The notes below the pieces were generated by a model that saw only the letters and a program-made list of their open reading frames with translations, was not told the origin of the DNA and ran no database searches. DNA of 48,805 nucleotides. Origin: Methylotenera oryzisoli. GTDB lineage: Bacteria; Pseudomonadota; Gammaproteobacteria; Burkholderiales; Methylophilaceae. Shown here one piece after another: positions 23,637 to 41,029 of the stretch. The stretch spans positions 1-48,805 of the forward strand of contig CAMDXI010000009.1 in the NCBI GenBank assembly GCA_945878695.1, given 5' to 3'. The stretch's first letter is position 1; the number at the start of each line of letters is the position of its first letter. The translations under genes were made by a program, and so were the position numbers.

Positions 23637-24803
23637 TTGTTCAGCCCAGCCTTATTGATTATCGCGCTTTCTGCTCGGCCTTTTGTGTCTGCGGCAGTGC
23701 AGGCCGGTTTTAAGGTCACCGCCATCGATGGCTTTGCTGATAGCCAAACGCAGGCGATGGCCAGTCTGACAGCGGTGGCGCCTTTCGACCACGATGGCTT
23801 TCAAGTCAAGGCCTTGCTCGCTATTATCGATACGCTGGATACCAGTCGCTATATCGGTTTTGTTTACGGTAGTGGCTTTGAAGCGCAGCCAGCCTTGTTG
23901 GCTGAGATCGCTAAGCGCATCCCCTTGCTGGGTAACCTACCGGCGACGCTGGCCAGCGTTAAATCCCCACCGGTTTTTTTCTCCGCTTGTGCGCGATTGG
24001 GCTTGGCTCACCCGCAAACCTGGACGCAGGCTAATGCAAGCTTACCGTTAGATGGCTTAGTGAAGGCTGTAGGGGCCAGCGGTGGCAGCCATGTTCAGCC
24101 CTACAGCAATGCAAAAGTAACGCTGGATAAGCAACGCTATGTGCAGCAGAAACTGCATGGCTTGCCGGTGTCGGTATTGTTTCTAGCCTATGGTCAGCAG
24201 ACTGCACTGGTGGGTTTTAATGAATTGATGCTGGCGCCGACCGAGGCCTTGCCCTACCGCTACGGTGGGGCGATCAGTCAAATTGATTTGACCGAAAGTG
24301 AGCAAGATCAGCTCTTGAAGGCGGCGCAGCAATTGACGGCCGAATTTTCCTTATTGGGTTTAAACAGTTTGGATGCCGTGCTGCAAGATGGCGTGGCCTA
24401 TGTGTTGGAGGTCAATCCGCGCTTAAGTGCCAGTGTGGGCTTGTATGAAACGGTTGATGGCGAGTTGAATTTATTGGCCATGCACGTCGCCGCCTGCACG
24501 CAATCCCAAGCGTATGCATTGCCATCGTCCGTCGCCGTGAAATCCGGCAGTGTAGCGCAAGCAGTTATTTACAGTGCCTTGCCCTTGAGCGTCCCGGCCA
24601 ACTTTGCTTGGCCAGATTGGGTGCAAGATTGCCCGTCCCCTCAGTCATCGACCCAGATGCTGGCGGGTCAGCCCATTTGCACGGTGTTGGCCACAGCCGA
24701 CAAGGCAGACGCGGCAAAGCATTTGCTGGCAATTCGAGTTAAAATGCTCAACAATTTATTGGCTAATCGTTTGAAAGAAGATGAAGATGCAAGCCCCTTC
24801 TAG
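23637..24803 (+). CDS. ATP-grasp protein of the H4MPT island, function unassigned
   Basis: 388 residues. An N-terminal nucleotide-binding-like domain begins at once (LLIIALSARPFVSAAV). The ATP-grasp domain shows GASGGSHVQPY near 142-152 and AYVLEVNPRLSASVGLYE near 263-280, whose Glu and Asn bind Mg-ATP. The reaction should be ligation of a carboxylate to an amine or similar nucleophile. The mtdB stop codon is in the same frame 18 bases upstream and no ATG or GTG lies between, so the TTG at 23637 is the only credible start. It overlaps mch by 17-23 bp. Proteins of this kind sit in H4MPT clusters of other methylotrophs, and loss-of-function there points to cofactor synthesis. The substrate is unknown. 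Confidence 0.8.
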   Translation: MFSPALLIIALSARPFVSAAVQAGFKVTAIDGFADSQTQAMASLTAVAPFDHDGFQVKALLAIIDTLDTSRYIGFVYGSGFEAQPALLAEIAKRIPLLGNLPATLASVKSPPVFFSACARLGLAHPQTWTQANASLPLDGLVKAVGASGGSHVQPYSNAKVTLDKQRYVQQKLHGLPVSVLFLAYGQQTALVGFNELMLAPTEALPYRYGGAISQIDLTESEQDQLLKAAQQLTAEFSLLGLNSLDAVLQDGVAYVLEVNPRLSASVGLYETVDGELNLLAMHVAACTQSQAYALPSSVAVKSGSVAQAVIYSALPLSVPANFAWPDWVQDCPSPQSSTQMLAGQPICTVLATADKADAAKHLLAIRVKMLNNLLANRLKEDEDASPF

Positions 24804-25770
24804 CGCGTCCGTGCATGCGAGTGTGAACCAGTTAAGCGCGCCTTTGTTGGCTAGGCTGCTAGCGAATGCGTCGGCTTTAAACATCGGTGTGACGCAGCAC
24901 CTGCTCGGTTGCCGCATAGTCGATGCGGGCATAGCCCATGCGGGTAGTTTGGAAGCAGGGCGTTTAATTGCGGAAGTATGCCTAGGTGGCTTAGCCCGCG
25001 TGGAGTTTCAAACGGATCAGCGATTTAAGCCGTCTCTTAATTGGCCGACGGCGATCAGCGTGACATCCGAGCAGCCAGTACTGGCATGTTTAGCCAGTCA
25101 ATATGCAGGCTGGGCTTTGAGTCACGAGGGTTTTTATGCCTTGGGCTCGGGACCGGCCCGCGCCTTGGCGCAGCGAGAAGATTTGTTCGCCGAGCTGGCT
25201 TATAAAGATACGGCCACGTCCACCTGCTTGGTCTTGGAAACCGATCGCATGCCACCTGAGCAAGTGATAGCCAAAGTGCTGCAGGATACGCAGGTGCCGG
25301 CAGCCAATTTGACCATCATCCTAACCCCGACCACCAGCATTGCCGGCGTGGTGCAAATTGTCGCGCGGGTATTGGAAGTGGCCTTGCATAAAGCCCATAC
25401 CCTGCATTTTCCTTTGAGCAATATCGTCAGTGGCAGTGGCGTGGCGGTATTGCCGCCAGTGGCCAAGGATTTTATGACCGCCATGGGGCGCACCAATGAT
25501 GCCATTCTTTTCGGTGGCACGGTCAATTTGCTGGTCGATTGCGATGATGCGGCTGCGCAGTCATTGGCCAGCCATTTACCCAGTTGCGCCTCCAAAGATT
25601 ACGGCCTTACTTTTGCTGAGGTGTTTAAAGCGGCCAATATGGACTTTTATAAAATTGACCCCATGCTGTTTTCGCCAGCGCAGGTGGTCATCAGCAACCG
25701 TCAATCGGGCGCTGTTTTTGCAGCAGGCCAGTTAAATGCCGATTTGCTGAAGCAGTCTTTTTCCGACTAA
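24781..25770 (+). CDS. mch: Methenyl-tetrahydromethanopterin cyclohydrolase
   Basis: 329 residues; the second ATG, at 24787, is better spaced from the AAAGAAG ribosome site and may be the true start. Family features include GVTQHLLGCRIVDAG near 33-47, GGLARVEF, FYALGSGPARAL near 118-129, and the late GRTNDAILFGG. It hydrolyses methenyl-H4MPT to formyl-H4MPT, the third step of the pathway. It overlaps the ATP-grasp gene, so expression is coupled. The formyltransferase/hydrolase genes fhcABCD and fae are not in the window. Confidence 0.95.
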   Translation: MKMQAPSSASVHASVNQLSAPLLARLLANASALNIGVTQHLLGCRIVDAGIAHAGSLEAGRLIAEVCLGGLARVEFQTDQRFKPSLNWPTAISVTSEQPVLACLASQYAGWALSHEGFYALGSGPARALAQREDLFAELAYKDTATSTCLVLETDRMPPEQVIAKVLQDTQVPAANLTIILTPTTSIAGVVQIVARVLEVALHKAHTLHFPLSNIVSGSGVAVLPPVAKDFMTAMGRTNDAILFGGTVNLLVDCDDAAAQSLASHLPSCASKDYGLTFAEVFKAANMDFYKIDPMLFSPAQVVISNRQSGAVFAAGQLNADLLKQSFSD

Positions 25771-25780
25771 GGCTAGCTTA

Positions 25781-25816
25781 GACTAAATGCAAATCCCCGA
25801 CTGAATGCAAATACCC
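25781..25816 (+). repeat. 18-bp tandem duplication at the start of the RimK-like gene
   Basis: The unit GACTAAATGCAAATCCCC (25781-25798) is repeated as GACTGAATGCAAATACCC (25799-25816) with two differences. The first copy holds its own ATG (25787), opening a 5-codon frame whose TGA directly abuts the ATG of the real gene at 25805. Confidence 0.85.
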
Positions 25817-26716
25817 ATATTTACCGATGAGGCCGGTTGGCACGGCGCGCAATTAATTCAGGCTTTCAAGGTGCGCGGCGTGGATGCGCATTGTGTGCCT
25901 TTGCACGCGTGCATGATCAATATGTCGGGTCAAGGTCCGGCGATAAGCATTCCTGGCCACACGGCATTGCCACAAGCGGTATTTGTTCGCGGGGTGGCTG
26001 GCGGCAGCTTGCAGCAAGTGGTGACGCGTTTAAATGTGTTGCACATGCTGGCCATGCACGGCGTACGCGTTTACAACGACGGCAGGGCCGTAGAGCGGGC
26101 GGTGGACAAGGCCATGACCAGTTTCTTGCTCGGTATGCATGGCGTCAAGACGCCGGCTACTTGGGTGTGCGAATCCAGGCAACAGGCACAACAAATTCGG
26201 CAAGAGGCGCAGGCTAATCAACAGGAATTGGTAATCAAACCCTTGTTCGGATCGCAAGGCTTGGGCGTGCGTAAACTACCTTTTACGGAGGCGTTGCCGG
26301 TGCCCATGCAGCAATTTGTCGATGGGGTTTATTATTTTCAGCAATTGATTACGCCGCCAGGCGATGCCGATGGCAGCGCTAGCCACGATTACCGGGTATT
26401 TGTGATTGATGGCCAGGTGGTGGCTAGCATGAAGCGCAGCGGTGCGGCTTGGTTGAATAATCTGGCCTCCGGTGGTTTAGCCAAGGCTTATGTGGCCAAT
26501 CAAGCCATGACGGATTTAGCCTTGGTGGCAGCTTCGGCACTGAATATGGATTACTGTGGGGTAGACATCATGCAGGCGCAAAGCGGCGAATACTATGTGT
26601 TGGAAGTGAACAGCATGCCGGCCTGGAAGGGCTTGCAAAGTGTGACTGAGCAAAATATTGCCCAGTTGTTGGTGGACGATTGTTTGGCAAAATTACCGTG
26701 CGCTGCAAACCGTTAA
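25805..26716 (+). CDS. RimK-like ATP-grasp glutamate ligase (MptN-like)
   Basis: 303 residues. RimK family: DKAMTSFLLGMHGVKTPATWV near 98-118 in part, VIKPLFGSQGLGVRKL near 146-161 (ATP-binding lysine and glycine loop), RVFVIDGQVVASMKR, and the terminal YYVLEVNSMPAWKGL near 264-278. Members add glutamate to cofactors or proteins. MptN adds glutamate to H4MPT in methanogens. In bacterial methylotrophs the final cofactor differs, so either H4MPT or the polyglutamate tail of methylofuran could be the target. It follows mch after 34 bp, which contain a tandem duplication. Confidence 0.85.
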   Translation: MQIPIFTDEAGWHGAQLIQAFKVRGVDAHCVPLHACMINMSGQGPAISIPGHTALPQAVFVRGVAGGSLQQVVTRLNVLHMLAMHGVRVYNDGRAVERAVDKAMTSFLLGMHGVKTPATWVCESRQQAQQIRQEAQANQQELVIKPLFGSQGLGVRKLPFTEALPVPMQQFVDGVYYFQQLITPPGDADGSASHDYRVFVIDGQVVASMKRSGAAWLNNLASGGLAKAYVANQAMTDLALVAASALNMDYCGVDIMQAQSGEYYVLEVNSMPAWKGLQSVTEQNIAQLLVDDCLAKLPCAANR

Positions 26717-29683: not shown

Positions 29684-30223
29684 ATGAGCAGCAGTCAAAA
29701 ATTAATTTTAGACAAATTAAGCAGTATATTGTCTGAAACAGACAACTCTAAATCAGCCGAACTTTTAAAATTGGTTCAAGGTGCTGGCCGCACATTCATT
29801 GGTGGAGCAGGTCGTTCACTATTGGTATCACGCTTCTTTGCTATGCGCTTGGTGCACGCTGGCTATAACGTTAGCATGATAGGCGAAGTGGTGACACCAG
29901 CCATTAAAGCCGGTGATTTGTTGTTATTGGTATCGGGTTCTGGCGGTACAGAAACCTTGTTGCCATTTGTTAAAAAAGCTAAATCAGTGGGCGCGAAATT
30001 GGTGGTGATTTCCATGAAGAAATCCTCACCCATGGCCGATGCAGCTGATTTAACCATACAAATTGGTAACGACAACAGCTTCCCATTAACCCAAGGTATG
30101 CCTATGGGTTCACAATTCGAACTTTCAACCTTGTTGTTCTTGGAAGCGGCCATTGCTGATTTGATTTTTGCTAAAAGTTTGACCGAAGAGGGCATGCGCG
30201 CCATTCATGCCAATTTGGAATAA
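29684..30223 (+). CDS. phi: 6-phospho-3-hexuloisomerase
   Basis: 179 residues, SIS-domain protein. FIGGAGRSLLVSRFFAMRL (near 38-56) and SGSGGTETLLPF (near 85-96) form the sugar-phosphate site. The C-terminal FELSTLLFLEAAIADL is characteristic. It isomerises hexulose 6-phosphate to fructose 6-phosphate, the second RuMP step. AAGGA ribosome site. A terminator precedes and another follows it. Confidence 0.95.
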   Translation: MSSSQKLILDKLSSILSETDNSKSAELLKLVQGAGRTFIGGAGRSLLVSRFFAMRLVHAGYNVSMIGEVVTPAIKAGDLLLLVSGSGGTETLLPFVKKAKSVGAKLVVISMKKSSPMADAADLTIQIGNDNSFPLTQGMPMGSQFELSTLLFLEAAIADLIFAKSLTEEGMRAIHANLE

Positions 30224-30249
30224 GCTAGCAAGTAATATGTCGTACGAAT

Positions 30250-30277
30250 AAAAAAGCTCGCCTAGGCGAGCTTTTTT
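30250..30277. terminator. Bidirectional terminator between phi and the HisA-like gene
   Basis: A perfect palindrome: AAAAAAGCTCGCC, TA, GGCGAGCTTTTTT. It has T-runs in both directions. The stop codon of the minus-strand gene lies within its right edge. Confidence 0.9.
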
Positions 30278-30989
30278 AGATGCCTAGCCTAGATAATGAC
30301 GCCCCGCTGATTTGTCGATTATGCAATGCGGTGGCCACCAGTACGCCGTGCACTCCCAATGCTTTTAAGCTAAGCAAGTCTTGCTCATCCCTTACGCCGC
30401 CAGCCGCATACCACCGACTGCCTTTATTAGACTGCGTAATTTGTTCCAGCCTGGTCTTATTAAAGCCTTGATTGGCTCCCACGTCGCACAGTGACATAAT
30501 AATGACCCGCTCTGGCCAATCTTCTGTTTGCTTAAACAATGCCAGCGGACCACGGAAGCCATCACTGAAAAAATCCAGTGATAAAATAAAGTCAGGCTGT
30601 TGCTGGCTAAGCGCCAGGTAATCCCGCATGTCATGGAAGTTTTCACTGGCTAAAATAATGCGTACATTAAGTTTTTGCCATTCAAGCAGATCCGCAGACT
30701 GCTTAAAGCCGGCATCCAGCCATAGTTCCAGTTCGGGGTAAGCGAGGCTTATCTGCGCTATGCTGGCGTAATTTGTACTGGTCTTATTCGGTAGTTTTTG
30801 AATGGCATTTAAGTCGGCGATATATAATTGCTTAAATGGGTAGATGGCCAGTAGCGCAGCGACGACAGTCAATGGATCACTAGACGGACAAAGTGGCGAG
30901 TGCATGCGTTGGTAAGTTTGCCTAAGGCCTTTTTTAGCATGCACCACTTCGCCATTCAATAAATCAATTACTGGGATTACTTGCATCAT
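30276..30989 (-). CDS. HisA/HisF-like TIM-barrel protein of the H4MPT island
   Basis: 237 residues. The N-terminus QVIPVIDLLNGEVVHAKKG resembles HisA, and YIADLNAI, LWLDAG and the late YAAGGVRDEQDLLSLKALGVHGVLVATAL keep the two half-barrel phosphate sites. It lacks the usual his-operon neighbours. It sits beside phi and is divergent from the methylofuran genes. HisA-related proteins of unknown role (COG1411-like) recur in methanogens and H4MPT-containing bacteria. The substrate is unknown; a phosphorylated cofactor precursor is plausible. Starts with two consecutive ATG codons. Confidence 0.8.
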   Translation of the reverse strand: MMQVIPVIDLLNGEVVHAKKGLRQTYQRMHSPLCPSSDPLTVVAALLAIYPFKQLYIADLNAIQKLPNKTSTNYASIAQISLAYPELELWLDAGFKQSADLLEWQKLNVRIILASENFHDMRDYLALSQQQPDFILSLDFFSDGFRGPLALFKQTEDWPERVIIMSLCDVGANQGFNKTRLEQITQSNKGSRWYAAGGVRDEQDLLSLKALGVHGVLVATALHNRQISGASLSRLGI

Positions 30990-32040
30990 CGAACAGCGTC
31001 AAAAAATATTAGTATGCGAGTTTATCACTGCTGGCGGCTTTGGTGATGCCCCATTGCCTTGCTCCTTGGCTAAAGAAGGGGCAATGATGCGTGATGCGCT
31101 GTTAAGAGACCTAAGTGAACTCAAGGCCTACCAACTGATTAGTCTGCACGATGTTAGGCTAGAGCCATCATGCATGGTGTCAAGCAGTACGGCAGTGGCC
31201 GCCGGCGAATTCATTAAGGTGTTTGAAGCATTACTCCTGCAAGTGGATTTGGTTTGGCTGATTGCACCGGAGTCAGACGGCCACTTGCTTAAGTTAACGG
31301 AGCTGTGCTTGCAAGCGGAAAGCAAACAGGATGGGCCCATATTGATAGGCTGTGGCTACGATGCCAGCTTAATTGGCACCAGTAAAACCTTAAGTTTTGA
31401 AGCCATGCAGGCTGCCGGCATACACACGCTGCCAGTGCATGCCGGAGAAGACGTCGTTCGCGATGATTATTTTGCCCAATTGGCGCAATCTAACGAAGCT
31501 TGGCTAGTTAAGCCCGAAGATGGCGCCGGTTGTGATGGCATACAGTATTTTGCTAGCATCATGTCCATGCGCGATTGGATGCAACAAGAGGATCGCAGCC
31601 AGCATTTTTTTGCGCAAGCATACCAGGCGGGGATTGCCGCTAGTTTTTGCATGCTCTGTCGGGATGGTCAGGCCTGGTTGCTCAGTGTCAATCAGCAACA
31701 CGTGAGCATGCAAGATAATGGATTTGTTTTGCATGGTATTAGCGTTAATGGCCTGAGCCAATATTGGTCTCGTTTTGAGACGCTGGCTCGCAAAATGGCT
31801 AAAATGCTACCGGATGCCTTGGCTTATGTAGGGGTGGATGTCATTATTGATACGCAGAACGACGCCCTCTATGTCATAGACATTAATCCGCGTTTAACCA
31901 GCAGCTACGTTGGCTTGCGTGAGGCCATGGCTTGCAACCCAGCCGAACTTATTTTGTCTTGCGTGTTGTCTGCGCGCTTTAAATTACCCTTAATAGAAAA
32001 AAACCGAGTGGGCATTAGCTTGCATGAAAACGACGCTTGA
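30985..32040 (+). CDS. ATP-grasp ligase, MfnD-like (aryl-amine-glutamate ligase)
   Basis: The obvious in-frame starts are TTG 31054 and ATG 31084. However, the frame is open back to a stop at 30913, and the translated stretch ILVCEFITAGGFGDAPLP just before 31054 looks like the normal beginning of this family. No ATG, GTG or TTG precedes it, so I place the start tentatively at ATC 30985, 9 bp after a GGG. An ATA at 31006 is another option. ATP-grasp motifs: WLVKPEDGAGCDGIQ and YVIDINPRLTSSYVGLRE. MfnD joins tyramine and glutamate in methanofuran; bacterial methylofuran carries tyrosine instead. It overlaps the mfnF-like gene by 17 bp. Confidence 0.75.
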   Translation: MIEQRQKILVCEFITAGGFGDAPLPCSLAKEGAMMRDALLRDLSELKAYQLISLHDVRLEPSCMVSSSTAVAAGEFIKVFEALLLQVDLVWLIAPESDGHLLKLTELCLQAESKQDGPILIGCGYDASLIGTSKTLSFEAMQAAGIHTLPVHAGEDVVRDDYFAQLAQSNEAWLVKPEDGAGCDGIQYFASIMSMRDWMQQEDRSQHFFAQAYQAGIAASFCMLCRDGQAWLLSVNQQHVSMQDNGFVLHGISVNGLSQYWSRFETLARKMAKMLPDALAYVGVDVIIDTQNDALYVIDINPRLTSSYVGLREAMACNPAELILSCVLSARFKLPLIEKNRVGISLHENDA

Positions 32041-33112
32041 CCATACTTCAGTAGAGCACGCCTTGTCGCCTGTTATAGGTTGGGATGTCGGTGGCGCCCA
32101 CCTTAAAGCAGTGCGCATCGATGCCGTGGGTAAGCTTGCCGTCATTCAGGTATATTGCCCATTGTGGCGTGGTTTAGATGCCTTGAGTGCAGCCATCGAT
32201 CAGGTATTGACGGAATTTTCTGTGTCAGCGATGGGGCATGCGCATTGCGTCACCATGACCGGGGAATTGGCGGATATTTTCCCCAATCGGGCTGCCGGCG
32301 TCCGGCAAATTGCCGACTTGTTAAGCGAGAAATTAGCCGAGCCCATGCTGTTTTATGCGGGCTACCAACATTGGCTAAGCCTGCCTGAGGTGGCAAGCCA
32401 AACCCATCGTATCGCCTCTATGAATTGGTTGGCCAGCATAGAATACTTAGCCAGCCATGTTAGCCATGCCTTGTTTATAGATATAGGCAGCACCACTACC
32501 GATTTGGCTTTAATCTGCGATGGCGAACCAAAAGTAATAGGCTTTAGCGACGCCACCCGCATGCAAACAAACGAATTAATTTACACTGGGGTGGTACGCA
32601 CACCCTTAATGGCCTTGGCACAAAAAATAGAGTTTCAGGGTCAATCGATTAATCTAGCTGCTGAGCATTTTGCTACCACGGCGGATGTCTACAGCCTAAC
32701 GGGCGATTTGTTGCAGAGCGAATACAGTGCAGAAACGGCTGATGGGTCAGACAAAAGCCTGGAGGCCTGCGCGCGACGTCTAGCGCGCATGATAGGGCGC
32801 GACGCCGACGATGCACCCTTAGCGGATTGGCAAGCCTTAGCGCAGGCCTTTAAGTTGCTGCAGTTACAGCAACTGCAGTTAGCTATAGAGCAGCATCTCG
32901 CTGCATTGACTGACAAATCGCAATGCGTATTGATTGGGGCAGGGGTGGGCGACTTCTTGTTAGCCAGTTTGGCTCAGCAATTAAATACGACTTACTCATC
33001 AGTGAACGATTTTATGGCGCTAGCACAGCAAGCTGGCGGATCCGCGCAGCGTATGGCTGCCGTGTGTTTCCCCGCATACGCTGTGGCCAGTTTGGGGAGG
33101 GGCCATGCTTAA
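32024..33112 (+). CDS. MfnF-like methylofuran assembly enzyme (H4MPT-linked C1 pathway protein)
   Basis: 362 residues, ASKHA (actin/hexokinase-like) fold. The phosphate loops are GWDVGGAHLKAV near 19-30 and FIDIGSTTTDLAL near 152-164; LIGAGVGDFLLASL is near the C-terminus. The family was long annotated hydantoinase/oxoprolinase-like. The methanogen member MfnF couples the furan unit to the tyramine-glutamate phenol in methanofuran. In this cluster the same step for methylofuran is likely. It overlaps the neighbours on both sides (17 bp and 8 bp), which implies tight cotranslation. Confidence 0.85.
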   Translation: MKTTLDHTSVEHALSPVIGWDVGGAHLKAVRIDAVGKLAVIQVYCPLWRGLDALSAAIDQVLTEFSVSAMGHAHCVTMTGELADIFPNRAAGVRQIADLLSEKLAEPMLFYAGYQHWLSLPEVASQTHRIASMNWLASIEYLASHVSHALFIDIGSTTTDLALICDGEPKVIGFSDATRMQTNELIYTGVVRTPLMALAQKIEFQGQSINLAAEHFATTADVYSLTGDLLQSEYSAETADGSDKSLEACARRLARMIGRDADDAPLADWQALAQAFKLLQLQQLQLAIEQHLAALTDKSQCVLIGAGVGDFLLASLAQQLNTTYSSVNDFMALAQQAGGSAQRMAAVCFPAYAVASLGRGHA

Positions 33113-34541
33113 GCACGCTATTCCTTATTGCGTTGATAGCAGCCGTTTATTTGAACGTATTGCCCACTTGCCTTGGCCTATGTTTCTAGACAGCGGCCAA
33201 CCCAAGAGTGAGTACGGTCGTTTTGACATATTGGTAGCGCAACCCTTTGTTACCGTCACCAGCGATGAAGTGCTAGACAGTGGCCGACCAGTCATCAAAA
33301 CCGAGGTCAATCAGCAGGGTGAAGTGACGGTGACTGATGAGGACGCCTTTAGCGTATTAAAGCGCCTATTGGCCGCCTACCCAGTCAATGAAAGCAGTGA
33401 ATGGCCCTTTGCTGGCGGTGCGCTAGGCTACTTTTCCTATGATTTAGCTAGGCAATTGGAAACCTTGCCCAGGCTGTCGGCTGGCGATAAGGCTAGCCCG
33501 CATATGCAAGTTGGTTTATACGATTGGGCTGTGGTGGTGGATCATCAGGAAAAGACCGCCGCATTGGTTTCATACGGGTTGTCGGCAAGCACTCATGACA
33601 ACTGGCCAGATTTATGCCGCTTGTTCGATGCGCAACCATCCGACCAGCACCAAGTCGTTGAGTCGGCTTTTCAACTAAAGGCCATGCCCAATAGCAACAT
33701 GACGTTTAGCCAATACAGCCTGGCTTTTAACAAAATTAAAGCTTACATCAAAGGCGGTGACTGCTATCAGGTGAATCTTGCGTTAAGGTTCGCTGCGCCG
33801 GCCGCAGGCAACAGTTGGTTGGTCTATAAACAATTGCGCGAGCTAAGCCCTGCGCCATTCATGGCTTATATGAAGTTTCCAAGCTGGCAAATATTGTCCG
33901 GTTCGCCTGAGCGTTTTTTGCAGGTGCGAAATCGGCATGTTGAAACGCGTCCGATAAAAGGCACCAGGCCGCGCGCCCTAAATGCCATTGAGGATGCGGC
34001 TTTGGCGGCGGATTTGCAAGGCAGCACTAAGGACCAAGCAGAAAATCTAATGATAGTGGATTTACTGCGTAACGACCTAGGCAAGAGCTGTGAAATAGGT
34101 TCGGTTCAAGCCGATCAATTATTTCGCTTACAAAGTTTTGCCAACGTACACCATTTGGTCAGCATAGTGCGCGGCCGTTTGGCACAGGGTAAGACCGCGA
34201 TTGACTTATTGCGAGCCTGTTTCCCTGGGGGCTCGATTACCGGTGCGCCTAAATTGCGGGCCATGCAAATTATAGAGGAATTGGAACCACACAGACGTGG
34301 TGTGTATTGCGGTGCCATAGCGTACATAGGCTTTGATGGCAATATGGACAGCAATATTGCCATTCGCACCGCTGTTTACCGTGAAGCGGATCATGGCGAC
34401 GGTGAAATAAGTTTCTATGCGGGCGGTGGCATAGTCAGTGATTCCTTGCTGGATCAGGAGTACACTGAAATTCAAGATAAGGCATCCGGTTTATTAAAAA
34501 CCATGCAACATTTCTTTAACGACAAGCAAGCGACACCCTAA
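33105..34541 (+). CDS. pabB: Aminodeoxychorismate synthase component I
   Basis: 478 residues. The chorismate-binding domain carries PIKGTRPR near 284-291; lysine in PIKGT marks PabB, whereas TrpE has PIAGT. GGSITGAPKLRAM is near 376-388 and GGGIVSDSLLDQEY near 441-454. It converts chorismate with ammonia to aminodeoxychorismate, the precursor of 4-aminobenzoate. The glutaminase PabA is not in the window. A very good GGGGAGG ribosome site lies at the end of the mfnF-like gene, which it overlaps. Its location suggests dedicated aminobenzoate supply for mptG. Confidence 0.92.
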   Translation: MLKHAIPYCVDSSRLFERIAHLPWPMFLDSGQPKSEYGRFDILVAQPFVTVTSDEVLDSGRPVIKTEVNQQGEVTVTDEDAFSVLKRLLAAYPVNESSEWPFAGGALGYFSYDLARQLETLPRLSAGDKASPHMQVGLYDWAVVVDHQEKTAALVSYGLSASTHDNWPDLCRLFDAQPSDQHQVVESAFQLKAMPNSNMTFSQYSLAFNKIKAYIKGGDCYQVNLALRFAAPAAGNSWLVYKQLRELSPAPFMAYMKFPSWQILSGSPERFLQVRNRHVETRPIKGTRPRALNAIEDAALAADLQGSTKDQAENLMIVDLLRNDLGKSCEIGSVQADQLFRLQSFANVHHLVSIVRGRLAQGKTAIDLLRACFPGGSITGAPKLRAMQIIEELEPHRRGVYCGAIAYIGFDGNMDSNIAIRTAVYREADHGDGEISFYAGGGIVSDSLLDQEYTEIQDKASGLLKTMQHFFNDKQATP

Positions 34542-34561
34542 TTTAAGCTAGGCAGACAGTC

Positions 34562-35200
34562 ATGCAGAACAATCAATTATGGGTAATTAAACTGGGTGGC
34601 AGCTTGTTAGGGTCGGCGGCCTTGCTGCATTGGCTATCGCTGCTGGCTAAGCACGGTAATGGCAAAGTGGTAATTGTGCCTGGTGGCAGTGTGTTTGCCG
34701 ATGCGGTTAGGCAAGCGCAAAACCTGTCAGGAGTGAGCGATGGCTTGGCTCATGAATTAGCTTTACTGGCCATGGATCAATTTGGCTTGTTGTTGGCGGG
34801 CATGCAGCCAGGTTTGGTGACGGCGACCAGCGAATTGGAAATAGCCGAACGTGGCTGGCAGCATAGGGCCGTGGTGTGGTTACCTAGCCAGATGGTGTTG
34901 GCTGATGCCACGGTTGAACAAAGCTGGCGAATGACATCGGATAGTTTGAGTGCGTGGTTAGCCAACAAATTAGCGGCAGATCAGTTGCTGTTAGTTAAAT
35001 CGGTGGATTTGAACTCTTACCAACAAAGTCAGGCAGCGCTTGCCAGAATCTTGCTTGATGACGGGGTGGTCGATGCCTGTTTCTTGGATGGCATAGCCGG
35101 ACAGCGCTATCAAACCCGCCTACTTAACAGAAACGATTACGTCTTATTTGAGCAGGGTTTGTGCACTCAAGGCTTACAGGAAAAAGCCAGACTACTTTAA
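34562..35200 (+). CDS. MfnE-like amino acid kinase family protein
   Basis: 212 residues. Amino acid kinase fold: IKLGGSLLGSAALLHWL near 9-25, VVIVPGGSVFADAVR near 36-50, and DQLLLVKSVDLNSY near 139-152. MfnE phosphorylates the aminomethylfuran phosphate to a diphosphate, the activated donor used by MfnF. Proximity to the mfnF- and mfnD-like genes supports that role in methylofuran synthesis. The gene is last in the plus-strand run; its stop is only 7 bp from the stop of the convergent RND gene, with no terminator visible. Confidence 0.82.
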   Translation: MQNNQLWVIKLGGSLLGSAALLHWLSLLAKHGNGKVVIVPGGSVFADAVRQAQNLSGVSDGLAHELALLAMDQFGLLLAGMQPGLVTATSELEIAERGWQHRAVVWLPSQMVLADATVEQSWRMTSDSLSAWLANKLAADQLLLVKSVDLNSYQQSQAALARILLDDGVVDACFLDGIAGQRYQTRLLNRNDYVLFEQGLCTQGLQEKARLL

Positions 35201-35207
35201 AAGCCCA

Positions 35208-38200
35208 TTAGCTAATGCGTTCTTTTTCAAAGCGGCCAAAGTGCAACATGATGGTAGGCAGGATGAGTAGATTGAGTAGGGTAGAGGTGATCAATCCACC
35301 GACGATGATGGTAGCCATGGGCCCTTCAATTTCTCTACCCGGTTGATCGCTGCCTAGGGCTAGCGGTAACAAGCCTAGTGCCGTGACCAAGGCGGTCATC
35401 AAAATAGAGGGCAGGCGTTCCGAGGCGCCACGTATGCAGGTCTCTAAACCCCAAACGCAATGCTCTTCATCAATTAAGTGTTGGTAGTGCGAGACCATCA
35501 TAATGGAGTTGCGCAGGGTGATGCCAAATAGAGTAACGAAGCCCACCAATGAGCCCAATGATATCCAGCCGCCAGTAAACATGGCGGCCACCACGCCGCC
35601 TATTAGGGCAAATGGCAGGTTGGCAAAAGTGAGCAATAGGTTACGTAAACGCCCAAAAGCAATGTAGAGCATTAAGAAAATGCCCACGCCAGCGAGCATG
35701 GAATGCACGATTAAATCTTCGCGCGATTGCGCATTGGCTTCGGCTTCGCCTGTGTAGGTGACAAAGTTGCCGGTGGATAAGCTTATGTCGGCATTCATGC
35801 GTTGCTTCATTTCCTTAGCAAAGCTGTTTAGGTCTCTGTCTTCAATGTTGCAAGTAATGGTTTGTATGCGTTTAGCCCCGGCGTGCAATATTTTTGAACG
35901 GCCATTTTCTTGGCTGATGTCGGCCACGTCGCGTAAATAAACAATTTTCCCATCTGGGTTTTTTAGCGGTAGGCTACCGATTTCTCGCAAATCGTCGCGC
36001 ACCACCTGATTAAACATGACGTTAACGCTGATGATTTGATTGTTTTGATAGATTTGCGTGGCTTGCACCCCTTCGTAAGCCGCTTGTATGTTTTCTAATA
36101 CATCCAGTGATTGCAGGCCGTATACCGCTAAGCGTTCTGGCCTTAAGCGTATGGCTAATTCCGGTGTGCCTGGGGGCGATTGAATTTGAATTTCGCTGGC
36201 GCCCTTAATGCCGCTTAATACGCCGGCAATTTTCCTGGCATCATGGTCTAAGGTGTCTAAATCGTGGCCATGAACATTGATGACCATGGCCGCAGTGTAA
36301 CCGGATATGGTCTCTTCTATGCGTTCAGTCAGAAAGGTATTGATGGCAAAATTAACCCCGATGAAGCCGGTTTCGGCTACACCATCACCATCGTCATCAA
36401 CCGCTTCGCCAGCCAGTTCTTCGCGGATACGCGCCAATATGCGGTCTTGTTCTGGCCCGCTGCAGGGCATTAATTCGACTTCAAACTCACTGTAGTGGGT
36501 GCCAAAGGTGTCCGCCGCATTGGGTGCTCGGCCTACCCATTGCGTAACCGATTTAACCCCATCAATGGCGCTGACCACCTTGGCCACATTTTTACCTATG
36601 CGCAAAGATTCTTGCGCTGAGGTGCCAGGGACGGCCGTCATGTGCATGATGTAGTGGCCTTCATGCAGGCTCGGTATAAATTGGCTTTTAAACAGGGGCA
36701 GCACACCTAAGCCTAAGGCAATGATCAATGCCACCATGCTGATGACTACCATGTAGTGCTGTTCTATATTTTTTAAGGCTGCTACATAATGTTTTTTTAT
36801 CCATACGATTAAGGGTGGATCTTGGCTTTCTAATTCGCCTTTTGAAAACAGCAGGTAGCAAAGTGCGGGGGTTAAGGTTAAGGCTACCACTAACGAGGCA
36901 AGGATGGCGCTGATGTAAGCGTAGCCTAAAGGGGCAAACAATTTACCGGCAACGCCGGATAGGGTTAATAGGGGTAAAAACACCATCACCACGATGATGG
37001 TGGCATACACCACCGAACTGCGCACTTCCATGGAAGCGTGATACACCACTTGGTAAGCCGGCAATGGTTGGGCCAGCAAGCGGTTTTTACGTAAGCGCCT
37101 AAAGATATTTTCCGTGTCTATGATGGCATCGTCCACCACCTCACCCAAGGCGATGGCTAGGCCACCTAGCACCATGATGTTCAGCCCCATGCCAAAGTAG
37201 GACAGCACTATGGTAGCGGTCAGCAGGGATAGGGGGATGGCGGTAGCGGAAATGAATGCCGTTCGGACGTTGAATAAAAATAAGAACAAGACCGCAATGA
37301 CTAGAACGGAGCCAACGAGTATGTCGGTTTTAACGCCATCGATGGCCGTTTCGATAAAATTGGCCGGACGAAATAAGCTGGGGTAAAAGTCGATTTGTTG
37401 TTCATTGAATTCTGGCGCTAGCTCTAACATGGCCTTCTCAACGGCTTCAGTTACTGCTTTAGTATTGGCCCCAAGCTGACTTTGGACGGAGAAATAAACG
37501 CCTTCTTTGCCATTGATGGCAGCAGCACTGATGGCTGGTGCAGCGCCTTCAACGACTTGAGCGATGTCCATCAGCCGAACCGTTTGGCCATCCCTATGGT
37601 AAATAGGCATTTGCGCTAGTTGTTTGGCATTCTTAGCCTGCCCCTCGGTGTTGATCAAGATGCGTTGGTTATTGTTTTCTATGTAGCCCGCACCGCGTAC
37701 GCCGCTGACCCTTGTTGTTGCGGCTAATACCTCCTGTATGGATAGGTGGTAGCGTATGAGTTTGTTGGGGTCGACTAATATTTGCCATTGCCGCACGTCA
37801 CCGCCCAGCACGTTGACATCGGCCACGCCTGGCACCGCCATAATATGCGGTTTAATGGTCCAATCCACCATGCTACGTAATTCCATGAGGCTGCGCTTGT
37901 TTGAGCTGATGCCCATGCCAAGAACGGTGCTGGCGCTGGATGCCAGAGGGGTGATGTTAGGGACGATGTTTTTTGGTAGTTGGTTGTTTAAGGTAGCTAG
38001 GCGCTCGGCAATAGCCTGCCTATTTTTATAAATGTCGGTTTTTTCATTGAAAATAATGGTAACGATAGACAGGCCTGGTATGGACTGTGAACGCATCGAT
38101 TCGACGCCAACCGTGCCAGATAAAGTGCTTTCTATGGGCTGCGTGACCAGTTGCTCAACCAGTTTGGAAGACAAGCCGGGTGACTCGGTCTGAATGACTA

Positions 38201-38339
38201 CTTGGGTAGGGGAGAATTCAGGAAAAACGTCTAAATTGGCTCTGGATAGGCCGTATAGCCCATAAATGACAACTAGGCAAGCTAGGCCTATGACTACGCC
38301 ATGAAATCGAATGGAGAATCGAACTAATGCGGACATCAT
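35208..38339 (-). CDS. CzcA/CusA-family RND heavy-metal efflux pump
   Basis: 1043 residues with twelve membrane helices, the RND layout of two large periplasmic loops. The helix-4 proton-relay region reads ALGEVVDDAIIDTEN. It differs from the DFG...DGA motif of Co/Zn/Cd pumps and from the Cu/Ag CusA pattern, so the metal is uncertain. The N-terminus (FPEFSPTQVVIQTESPG) and QSIPGLSIVTIIF are typical of the heavy-metal branch. It exports ions with the adaptor and outer-membrane factor encoded upstream on the same strand. Confidence 0.92.
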   Translation of the reverse strand: MMSALVRFSIRFHGVVIGLACLVVIYGLYGLSRANLDVFPEFSPTQVVIQTESPGLSSKLVEQLVTQPIESTLSGTVGVESMRSQSIPGLSIVTIIFNEKTDIYKNRQAIAERLATLNNQLPKNIVPNITPLASSASTVLGMGISSNKRSLMELRSMVDWTIKPHIMAVPGVADVNVLGGDVRQWQILVDPNKLIRYHLSIQEVLAATTRVSGVRGAGYIENNNQRILINTEGQAKNAKQLAQMPIYHRDGQTVRLMDIAQVVEGAAPAISAAAINGKEGVYFSVQSQLGANTKAVTEAVEKAMLELAPEFNEQQIDFYPSLFRPANFIETAIDGVKTDILVGSVLVIAVLFLFLFNVRTAFISATAIPLSLLTATIVLSYFGMGLNIMVLGGLAIALGEVVDDAIIDTENIFRRLRKNRLLAQPLPAYQVVYHASMEVRSSVVYATIIVVMVFLPLLTLSGVAGKLFAPLGYAYISAILASLVVALTLTPALCYLLFSKGELESQDPPLIVWIKKHYVAALKNIEQHYMVVISMVALIIALGLGVLPLFKSQFIPSLHEGHYIMHMTAVPGTSAQESLRIGKNVAKVVSAIDGVKSVTQWVGRAPNAADTFGTHYSEFEVELMPCSGPEQDRILARIREELAGEAVDDDGDGVAETGFIGVNFAINTFLTERIEETISGYTAAMVINVHGHDLDTLDHDARKIAGVLSGIKGASEIQIQSPPGTPELAIRLRPERLAVYGLQSLDVLENIQAAYEGVQATQIYQNNQIISVNVMFNQVVRDDLREIGSLPLKNPDGKIVYLRDVADISQENGRSKILHAGAKRIQTITCNIEDRDLNSFAKEMKQRMNADISLSTGNFVTYTGEAEANAQSREDLIVHSMLAGVGIFLMLYIAFGRLRNLLLTFANLPFALIGGVVAAMFTGGWISLGSLVGFVTLFGITLRNSIMMVSHYQHLIDEEHCVWGLETCIRGASERLPSILMTALVTALGLLPLALGSDQPGREIEGPMATIIVGGLITSTLLNLLILPTIMLHFGRFEKERIS

Positions 38340-38361
38340 GGTTTAATTAGCCATCTCTATT

Positions 38362-38484
38362 TGCATTGAAATGCCAATTAAGCTGTTAAATTTAATCGTC
38401 ATTTTAGCTCCGACCTAACGCCAACAATCCAGCATTAGTCTGCACTGAAATGCCAATTAAGCTGTTAAATTTAATCGTCATTTT
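38362..38484. repeat. 44-bp direct repeat at the 3' end of the RND adaptor gene
   Basis: Copies at 38362-38405 and 38441-38484 differ by one base, with starts 79 bp apart. The right copy covers the last codons and stop of the adaptor gene. The left copy, in the intergenic gap before the pump gene, therefore repeats that coding end. Confidence 0.92.
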
Positions 38485-39571
38485 CATTGGTGATTTGGTA
38501 CTTAAGTTCTTCGGACAACAACAGTTGTGCACCGCTGCTAACCAATTCATCGCCAGCAACAAAACCCATGTTGTTGAACCAACCGCTCATCTTCTCACCT
38601 TCGATTTCCACTTCGGTGCTAATTAATCGACGAACAAATTTGTCAGAACCTGGTTTGTCGGCAGCCAGTTTTTGGTATACCCATGCTTGGTTGGCGAACC
38701 ACACTACCGCCTCGTGAGGCACTATAACGCCTTTGCTGGATTGTTTTTGACTATCCAAGCGGGCGCTGACACGCATGCCTGCACGCAAATTTTTTGCGGG
38801 GGCTAGGTAAAAATAGGTTTTGCCTTGAAGGGCAGTGTCAGCTTGGGGCGCAGCTGAGACAAAAGTAGCCATGGCGATAGCTTGACCACCTATTTGACTG
38901 ATTTTTATTGTGCTTTTTGCATTAGGACTAACATCAAAAGGCAGGCTTACTTTTATTAAAACGGCTTGAAAATGCAAAAGTGACAGAAAGTCCTGCTTTG
39001 GGTTGGCTTGTGTAGCCCAATCAGTCAGGACGCTGCCCCATTGCTGATGCATGCTGTCGCGTATGCCTTTGGCTAAGGTTTGGCTGGCACTTAGTTTTGC
39101 CTGTTCGGCATGCAAACTAGCCCATGCTTCTTGTGCAGCGCTGTCAGAGATATTTTTGTCGTCTTGATTAAGCAATTGCATGCGCTGTGCATTTTGTTGT
39201 TTGCTGGCCATGCTGCTGCGTATTACATTGCTATCGGCCATGGCAGATAGGTAGCGTGTGCGCATTTCCAGTAAGCTGTCCACCGCTTCAACGCTGGCAA
39301 ACGAGGCCGTGGAAGCTTGGTGTTGCGTGCTGCTTAATGCTACCGTTTTTATGCCACTTTGTTGTTGTGAGGCTTTGCTTAGGAGTAAGGTGGCTGCGCC
39401 TTTATCCTCAGCACTATTGCTGCTAAGCAAGCTGGTGCTGTTGATGCTCTCTTCGGCGCCGCCGCTGGAAGCCGTCTCAAATTCATCTTTAGCAAAATAA
39501 ACCATGAACCAAAATAATAGAATAATCAGTATGGCCTGGACGGCAATAACCATCGTTGCTTTACGATTCAT
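38471..39571 (-). CDS. Periplasmic adaptor (membrane fusion) protein of RND efflux system
   Basis: 366 residues. N-terminal signal anchor (about 7-27), low-complexity Ser-rich segment (about 33-60), then lipoyl/coiled-coil hairpin and beta-barrel regions (RAGMRVSARL, GVIVPHEAVVWFANQAWVYQ). It links pump to outer-membrane channel. AGGAG ribosome site. It overlaps the upstream channel gene by 11 bp. The N-terminal portion is divergent from well-known CusB/CzcB proteins. I see no Met- or His-rich metal-binding extension. Confidence 0.85.
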   Translation of the reverse strand: MNRKATMVIAVQAILIILLFWFMVYFAKDEFETASSGGAEESINSTSLLSSNSAEDKGAATLLLSKASQQQSGIKTVALSSTQHQASTASFASVEAVDSLLEMRTRYLSAMADSNVIRSSMASKQQNAQRMQLLNQDDKNISDSAAQEAWASLHAEQAKLSASQTLAKGIRDSMHQQWGSVLTDWATQANPKQDFLSLLHFQAVLIKVSLPFDVSPNAKSTIKISQIGGQAIAMATFVSAAPQADTALQGKTYFYLAPAKNLRAGMRVSARLDSQKQSSKGVIVPHEAVVWFANQAWVYQKLAADKPGSDKFVRRLISTEVEIEGEKMSGWFNNMGFVAGDELVSSGAQLLLSEELKYQITNENDD

Positions 39572-40946
39572 AGGTAACTCCTGCGCTAGTCAGCGGTTTT
39601 TCCATTAAGTTTTCTAGCTTTCTGACCGCGTCATTATAGTGATACTGGGCTGCCGCTAAGTTTTTTTCTGCCAGCACGGTTTCTAATTTTGCTAAGGTGA
39701 AAGCGAGTCGGTCAATTTGACCGGCGGCCAGTAAGCTAGCCATGCGTTTTTCCTGTAACTGTTGTTCATTTAGCAGGGATTTCTGTTTAATTAAGGCCGT
39801 ACGCGCTTCACTTAGCTCACCGTGAGCGACCACTGTGTCAGCCATGATTTGGTTTTGCAGCACCTCGAATTGAGTCGCTTCCACTTCACGTAATTGGCTG
39901 GCTTCTGCAATGGCTAATTTATTTTTATGCAACAGGCTTAGCAAGCCAGATAAACCTAAGGACCAAACGCTGTCGCCAAATTCGTAAGCGTAACCCGGGC
40001 TGATAATTAGATCGGGGTATTGATTGGCTATTTCTAGCTTCAATTTGGATTCCATGCTGGCGTAGCGTAATAGGGCGATTCTTAAATCTAAACGATTCAA
40101 TAAGGCATTTTTTTGCAGCTCGGCCAATGGCCAATCTTGATCTGATTGCAGGCTAAGGTCGCTTTTCAGAATTAATTTATTAAACTGCACCAGCGGTAAG
40201 CCAGCCTGACTTGCTAGCTGGTTGTATAGCGTTGTTGACTGTTGCTGTGCTTGATTAAGCAGGGCTGCATTGGTCTGCAGTTGTAGGTTTGCTGTGCTTA
40301 ACACTACGTTAGATGCGGCACCTAAAGTCACGCGTTTTTTATAAATGGCAACGATGGCTTGGTGCTCAGCTTGTTCTTTAGTTAATAGGCGAATTTGATG
40401 CAACTTTGCTTGGTAGTCTAGCCAGGTTTGCGCGAGATTGCTGCGAAGTTCCCAAGCCGTCTGGGCTATTTGCAATTGGGCTATTTCGGCTAAGTGTTTA
40501 GCGTGGCCAACCCGTATTTCTCCTTTGTCAGCTATGTCTAAGGGCAGGTCTATGCTTAATCCTAATGCGTATGGTTTTTTTACCGGATCTGGATCGTTGC
40601 TGCGGGCAAGGTTGGCATTCAAGCTTGGAATAGCCGATTTGGCAGTGGTCGCCACGGATAAGGCGGCGGTTTGGTATTTGGCCTTGGCCAGGTCTAAACT
40701 AGGGTGAAAAAATAAGGCGCAATAGTTCAGGTCTTCTAGCCCCCAAACTTTTACAGGCAATTGATCGGATTTATAGCCATGTACAATGAGAAATGCTTGA
40801 AATGCTGGACTATTTGGGTCTTTTTTGGCTAACTTAGCTAAATTAGCTTGGGTGTCTATGGGTTTTGCTTGATATTGCTGAAAGCTGCAAGCACTCAACA
40901 TCAATGGAATGAGCATGAATCGCAAGGTGTTGAGTTTGCAACGCAT
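39561..40946 (-). CDS. TolC-family outer-membrane efflux lipoprotein
   Basis: 461 residues from ATG 40946; a TTG at 40976 would add ten. I prefer 40946 because MRCKLNTLRFMLIPLMLSAC is then a clean lipoprotein signal with cleavage before C20 (lipobox LSAC). Long helical repeats such as AELQKNALLNRLDLRIAL and LAEKNLAAAQYHYNDAV in two halves are typical of outer-membrane factors. First gene of the minus-strand efflux operon. Confidence 0.87.
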   Translation of the reverse strand: MRCKLNTLRFMLIPLMLSACSFQQYQAKPIDTQANLAKLAKKDPNSPAFQAFLIVHGYKSDQLPVKVWGLEDLNYCALFFHPSLDLAKAKYQTAALSVATTAKSAIPSLNANLARSNDPDPVKKPYALGLSIDLPLDIADKGEIRVGHAKHLAEIAQLQIAQTAWELRSNLAQTWLDYQAKLHQIRLLTKEQAEHQAIVAIYKKRVTLGAASNVVLSTANLQLQTNAALLNQAQQQSTTLYNQLASQAGLPLVQFNKLILKSDLSLQSDQDWPLAELQKNALLNRLDLRIALLRYASMESKLKLEIANQYPDLIISPGYAYEFGDSVWSLGLSGLLSLLHKNKLAIAEASQLREVEATQFEVLQNQIMADTVVAHGELSEARTALIKQKSLLNEQQLQEKRMASLLAAGQIDRLAFTLAKLETVLAEKNLAAAQYHYNDAVRKLENLMEKPLTSAGVTYES

Positions 40947-41029
40947 GTTAAATAATAAGGTGGTTGGCTTTTGCAAAATAATGGTATGACTAGGTCGGTT
41001 TGCGTTATTGGTAGATTTACCAACTGAAA

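Follow-up and report, generated by a model that had tools for sequence, protein, structure and literature searches.

The window analysed here, a 48,805-nucleotide stretch of a Methylotenera oryzisoli genome (GenBank assembly GCA_945878695.1, contig CAMDXI010000009.1), contains homologues of mfnD, mfnF and mfnE, which encode three late enzymes of methanofuran synthesis in methanogens. We assign a probability of roughly 0.85 to the interpretation that this locus represents the archaeal-like methylofuran/tetrahydromethanopterin (H4MPT) cluster in the form it takes in Methylophilaceae and that its mfnD most probably starts at an AUC codon. The operon and its role in methylofuran synthesis are ordinary and already known biology; the points worth following are the AUC start of mfnD and the near-absence of the tyrosine decarboxylase MfnA from the genus. 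"Genus" denotes group g1 of the genome-set classification, which includes two genomes (G117 and G040) with coordinates matching M. mobilis 13 and M. oryzisoli La3113; some strains that bear the name Methylotenera, M. versatilis 7 (G050, g22) among them, are not part of it.

Homology and conservation of the operon

Profile searches gave significant matches for all three proteins. The MfnD homologue scored 61.4 bits (E 9e-17) against the archaeal family NF040722, whose curated cut-off is 400, the MfnF homologue 155 bits (E 2.6e-45) against NF040623 (cut-off 520), and the MfnE homologue 87.8 bits (E 7.7e-25) against NF040622 (cut-off 300), the last match being confined to residues 7-149 of 212. 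Judged by these sequence scores, the homology is far beyond chance, yet none of the proteins is a member of its archaeal equivalog. The original prediction of a match to the methanogen ligase, kinase and coupling enzyme thus holds as homology but not as equivalog membership. The folds it had named, an ATP-grasp ligase, an ASKHA (acetate and sugar kinases/Hsc70/actin) enzyme and an amino acid kinase, were recovered at their positions by PF02655 and PF18301, by PF01968 and TIGR03123, and by PF00696, respectively. The MfnD homologue combines an ATP-grasp domain (79 bits) with the matching pre-ATP-grasp domain (44 bits), both above cut-off, and the MfnF homologue belongs to the H4MPT-linked one-carbon transfer family TIGR03123 (333.7 bits; cut-off 244). 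Solved relatives exist for each protein. A search of the PDB with the single MfnD sequence gave no match, but a profile of 55 MfnD relatives found 3df7 from Archaeoglobus (9e-25), which is also the best fold match of the MfnD AlphaFold2 model (mean predicted local distance difference test score, pLDDT, 93.5). MfnF has an archaeal relative in 3c0b/3cet (E 1.9e-33), and MfnE a weaker one in 7qrh (E 1.7e-15, residues 6-149).

Comparable clusters are on record for methylotrophs, the Methylophilaceae among them (PMC4109929, PMC8141765, PMC5020050). Hemmann et al. 2021 (PMC8141765) described Orf22, Orf21 and Orf9 as homologues of MfnB, MfnE and MfnF, and for Methylobacillus and five further strains they noted a protein that comes closer to MfnD (orf1, Mfla_1650); orf1 is equated with mfnD in PMC5020050 as well. 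The prediction of a methylofuran assembly operon therefore agrees with what had already been published for orf1, orf9 and orf21. In Methylorubrum extorquens, the orf17 homologue has proved essential for methylofuran (PMC8141765, also the source of the role given to MyfB), and in Methylobacillus a MyfA homologue adds the second glutamate. The cluster list given for Methylophilaceae comprises fhcABCD, mptG, mtdB, orfY, mch, orf5, 7, 17, 1, 9, pabB, orf22, 19, 20 and afp, with an hps copy linked to hpi and transaldolase; orf21 (mfnE) is not named in that list (PMC4109929).

Because no archaeal equivalog cut-off is reached, we infer the substrates of all three enzymes, and with them the reaction steps and the amine, from published enzymes. 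By this analogy, the ATP-grasp enzyme MfnD would ligate glutamate and an aromatic amine, tyramine being the most probable one. The amino acid kinase MfnE would convert aminomethylfuran phosphate to the diphosphate, which the ASKHA enzyme MfnF would couple with the glutamyl-amine under loss of pyrophosphate. The MyfA and MyfB candidates may lengthen the glutamate chain. The product of pabB in the middle of the operon presumably serves the synthesis of the aminobenzoate moiety of H4MPT.

The genes run in the order mfnD-mfnF-pabB-mfnE, with orf17 divergent to mfnD. The claim that the three mfn genes overlap or nearly touch was borne out for mfnD and mfnF (17-nt overlap); mfnF and mfnE, on the other hand, are separated by pabB, a gene passed over in that claim; it overlaps mfnF by 8 nt and lies 20 nt before mfnE according to the coordinates of the open reading frames (ORFs). 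This order is widely conserved. The run is unbroken in 70 of 80 named loci, nine of the other ten stopping at a contig end, and orf17 is divergent to mfnD in 79, the remaining locus (L175) beginning at mfnD. Most of the best named loci are labelled Methylotenera (L105, 91%; L134, 92%), followed at 55-57% by those of M. mobilis 13 and M. oryzisoli La3113. In one locus (L139, 2359-3417 and downstream) no mfnF was detected between mfnD and pabB. Matches were also found in 24 plasmid loci, three of which were inspected: a Thiodictyon plasmid has the same order including pabB, an Azoarcus plasmid the same order without pabB, and an Azospirillum plasmid the same order up to mfnF. Of the 52 genomes in the genus, 51 encode a MfnD homologue, as do 88 of the 120 in the family; none of the listed genomes of groups g13 and g15 (all about 1.1-1.4 Mb) does.

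The genome to which the window belongs is a draft assembly of 1.39 Mb in 53 contigs, 86% complete. The window itself links mch, orfY, orf5, orf17, orf1, orf9 and pabB, as in bacterial clusters of the archaeal-like H4MPT/methylofuran type. Elsewhere in the genome lies mfnB (G000:C4:38307-38969; L185, 9293-10009), the product of which matches PF04476 above cut-off (213 bits). Fhc is represented there by an FhcA fragment at a contig edge, which with 382 bits falls just below its cut-off of 393. The mfnB gene stands in a second island beside frames resembling DUF447, DUF6513 and a flavoprotein, as judged by eye and from the Azoarcus annotation.

The start codon of mfnD

The mfnD frame is open from 30916, and its first ATG, GTG or TTG is the TTG at 31054, downstream of the conserved stretch KILVCEFITAGG. 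Conserved coding sequence thus lies upstream of every standard start codon. The stretch contains the first strand of the MfnD model (residues 6-12) and the columns E12, G17 and G18, which are invariant in 55 sequences. The position given by the original prediction, 30985, is an ATC codon rather than ATG, GTG or TTG, yet it is likely the true start.

The same situation recurs across the genus. The start-codon survey covered 36 distinct sequences from the 39 best-matching loci among the 51 genomes with mfnD, more distant members lying outside this sample. In 15 of them the open frame holds no standard start ahead of the conserved stretch; in eight others such a codon is found only at -1 or no nearer than codon -19. 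Between codons -15 and -3, a standard start is thus lacking in 23 of the 36. The pair ATY ATY occupies codons -9/-8 in 26 sequences. A standard start between -15 and -3 is found in the other 13, either ATG (-7, -8, -9, -12 or -13; for example at -9 in L083, L096 and L100 and at -8 in L086) or TTG (-10). Among the 80 named loci, 12 have no standard start upstream; elsewhere in the family, outside the genus, the nearest start is often TTG or GTG. The sequence AGAGGA precedes ATC ATC by 6 nt in L099 and L103, of which the former also has a GTG at -22 and the latter no standard start. Selection points to translation of this region in the mfnD frame. For codons -3 to +8, the ratio of nonsynonymous to synonymous polymorphism (pN/pS) is 0.12 in all 36 sequences and 0.11 in the 15 without a standard start, whereas the other frames give at least 1.9 (1.94 and 5.62 for the 15). 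As far as sequence comparison can tell, mfnD of the genus is most probably translated from AUC, or from AUU in a few sequences.

A start of mfnD at TTG 31054 or a later standard codon, with the stretch before it left untranslated, is improbable. In its favour, TTG is among the permitted starts and was chosen in the mechanical ORF list, and five of the 15 sequences that lack an upstream standard start have GTG as the valine codon of the conserved stretch. However, a start at 31054 would, according to the model, remove the first strand together with the invariant E12, G17 and G18, the alignment with the solved relative 3df7 begins at this very strand, and the purifying selection at codons -3 to +8 acts in frame. 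Initiation at the GTG variant would likewise cut the strand, and the window has GTA at the valine position. A sequencing or assembly error in the window, conceivable for a draft of 53 contigs, is hardly credible as the cause of the missing start codon, as the 15 sequences without one include those of two one-contig genomes of 99-100% completeness (G078 and G006; L103 and L097).

Several observations weigh against the AUC start or the functional assignment. A TTG immediately precedes ATC ATC in L101, L011 and L013 (-10), and an ATG stands at -12 in L084; a standard start is therefore possible in those four. Codons -7 to -1 show a weak frame preference, with an in-frame pN/pS of 0.41 (36 sequences) and 0.46 (the 15) and values of 0.55-1.42 for the other frames (0.55 and 1.01 among the 15), which makes the exact initiating codon less sure than the beginning of translation upstream of the strand. 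The 23 residues before TTG 31054 change the archaeal MfnD score little, from 61.4 to 61.6 bits. The archaeal profile thus lends the longer start no support; the bacterial alignment, 3df7 and the model do. On the functional side, the shortfall from all three equivalog cut-offs and the partial MfnE match have to be counted, and a literature search yielded no assay of any enzyme from the genus.

The predicted start is entangled with that of orf17. The orf17 ATG (30989-30987) and the second ATC of mfnD (30988-30990) have two bases in common, giving the sequence CATC. At that place a plasmid of Azoarcus and another of Azospirillum have CATG, with annotated starts overlapping by two bases. An earlier mfnD ATG might accordingly have shared a CATG palindrome with the orf17 ATG, and a change of its G would have produced ATC. 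This ancestry is a guess, because the annotated starts do not overlap in Thiodictyon and lie apart in many other Methylophilaceae. In L125 (same stretch as L099) the orf17 start is found 267 nt upstream of the valine codon, and overlap therefore does not force the ATC codon at that locus.

If the AUC start holds, gene finders that accept no start but ATG, GTG or TTG would predict a shortened MfnD for members of this genus, and expression of a protein so annotated would yield a ligase that lacks its first strand. An AUC start found genus-wide and in many cases shared with a divergent start codon would also offer an uncommon opportunity to study non-canonical initiation in nature. The start-codon literature searches, none of which was aimed at mfnD together with start codons, returned nothing on mfnD by title or abstract, and an earlier report may exist.

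The amine of methylofuran

MfnA is nearly absent from the genus when PF00282 decarboxylases serve as the marker. None above cut-off was found in the window's genome, and only one of 52 genomes of the genus has one, compared with 42 of 120 in the family. The sole PF00282 protein above cut-off in the genus (G151:C10:3580-4689; L187) may be misbinned or a true mfnA product. The sampled genomes of g9, g19 and g22 have no PF00282 protein above cut-off, G070 and G050 matching at about 18 bits; g23 is represented in this survey by one genome, 75% complete. The archaeal MfnA profile TIGR03812 was rejected as a marker, for it matched 113 of the 120 family genomes at E <= 0.001 and none above cut-off, with best scores of about 119 bits against a cut-off of 299. 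Its many short, weak matches are probably other pyridoxal phosphate enzymes. Owing to these low scores, the PF00282 proteins considered here are MfnA only by their naming in PMC8141765. Decarboxylases of the OKR family (PF01276) were considered as a replacement for MfnA and do not discriminate, as they occur in 114 of the 120 genomes.

The absence of mfnA from the window had been taken to fit a methylofuran built on tyrosine. From the window alone this is uninformative, since the candidate mfnA of Methylobacillus flagellatus is located elsewhere in its genome, adjoining the mxa cluster and outside the methylofuran cluster (PMC8141765). Moreover, all four betaproteobacteria tested in that study contain tyramine-type methylofuran; they include Methylophilus methylotrophus and Burkholderia sp. 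Leaf177, in which a MfnA homologue was reported as not found. As two MfnA-less betaproteobacteria contain tyramine, lack of MfnA does not predict tyrosine, and the earlier argument fails.

The tyrosine form itself, with MfnD joining glutamate to tyrosine and no tyrosine decarboxylase existing, remains an unlikely but serious alternative for the genus. The scarcity of PF00282 proteins fits it, and Methylomicrobium album, which makes the tyrosine type, has a MfnD homologue (PMC8141765). A further hint lies in the loop after the first strand of MfnD, where Tyr follows GGL in 17 of 19 MfnD sequences of PF00282 genera and in one of 17 of genera without, in a comparison of 36 hand-chosen sequences whose PF00282 status was labelled by genus. 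On the tree of this set, the mfnA label changes three times and the Tyr label four times, with one contrast on well-supported branches. With one to three independent contrasts to rest on, the correlation does not reach significance, and this Tyr was discarded as a substrate mark. Against tyrosine also stand the four of four tyramine results cited above, and tyramine remains the most likely amine. Literature searches found no paper pairing Methylotenera with methylofuran, or Methylophilus and Methylotenera with tyramine. With MfnA so scarce in the genus, the origin of the amine in betaproteobacterial methylofuran, a question already posed in PMC8141765, becomes more pressing.

On balance we lean toward a scenario in which the AUC or AUU codon is a weak start that sets a low level of MfnD, the genus, being without MfnA, uses another decarboxylase or tyrosine, and the start perhaps derives from an ATG within CATG.

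Locus layout and comparison with known systems

Coordinates and profile scores are collected in Table 1. The plus strand upstream of the operon carries mch, the MyfB-like gene, a CitG-like gene and the ATP-grasp gene in the orfY/MyfA position, as well as mptG, mtdB, tal, hps and hpi, which were labelled by gene order and by eye. The MyfB candidate scores 184 bits against the MptN profile, below its cut-off of 350. A scan of 30200-35300 gave two promoter matches (6.4 expected) and 14 terminator-like sites (5.8 expected), the latter mostly within genes. Directly after mfnE, the minus strand (35208-40976) carries genes that by eye resemble a three-part resistance-nodulation-division (RND) efflux system, and many of the 80 named loci have matches at the equivalent position.

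Table 1. Genes and predicted start site at the methylofuran/H4MPT locus (positions in the window)
Feature	Position	Strand	Evidence and remarks
myfA (orfY) candidate, ATP-grasp	23637..24803	+	PF02655 58 bits; named from position before mch and from papers, not from a dedicated profile
mch, methenyltetrahydromethanopterin cyclohydrolase	24781..25770	+	TIGR03120 390 bits, above cut-off
myfB (orf5) candidate, RimK/MptN-like polyglutamate ligase	25805..26716	+	TIGR00768 162 bits (cut-off 143)
orf17, HisA/HisF-like, divergent to mfnD	30276..30989	-	TIGR00734 100 bits (cut-off 180, not reached); PF00977 70 bits
mfnD homologue (orf1), predicted ATP-grasp ligase	30985..32040	+	351 aa counted from AUC; frame open 30916-32040
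Predicted mfnD start, ATC ATC	30985..30990	+	No in-frame ATG/GTG/TTG between the stop before 30916 and TTG 31054
mfnF homologue (orf9), ASKHA fold	32024..33112	+	PF01968 69 bits; TIGR03123; NF040623
pabB, aminodeoxychorismate synthase component I	33105..34541	+	478 aa; TIGR00553 352 bits (cut-off 328); PF00425
mfnE homologue (orf21), amino acid kinase fold	34562..35200	+	PF00696 48.5 bits; NF040622

In Escherichia coli, infC and pcnB are bacterial genes with AUU or AUC start codons. The mfnD gene would resemble them in initiating at an AUN codon other than AUG. It differs from them in two respects: here and in many related loci the putative start codon shares bases with the start of orf17, a divergent gene that serves the same pathway, and such a codon is found repeatedly within one genus. 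AUU, AUC and AUA have been named as rare but known bacterial starts (PMC6397469). In its gene content, the window is like the cluster of Methylobacillus flagellatus and other Methylophilaceae (PMC4109929), the published list of which includes the cluster genes of the window apart from mfnE. Unlike in M. flagellatus, where strain L1B has a TTG start candidate (L180), mfnD often lacks a standard start in the genus of the window, where PF00282 proteins are also nearly missing. With the methanofuran pathway of methanogens (MfnA-MfnF), the genome shares homologues of MfnB, MfnD, MfnE and MfnF; it differs in that the last three lie far below the archaeal equivalog cut-offs and that no MfnA homologue scores above cut-off. 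The products differ as well, bacterial methylofuran carrying a long polyglutamate chain in contrast to the methanogen cofactor (PMC8141765).

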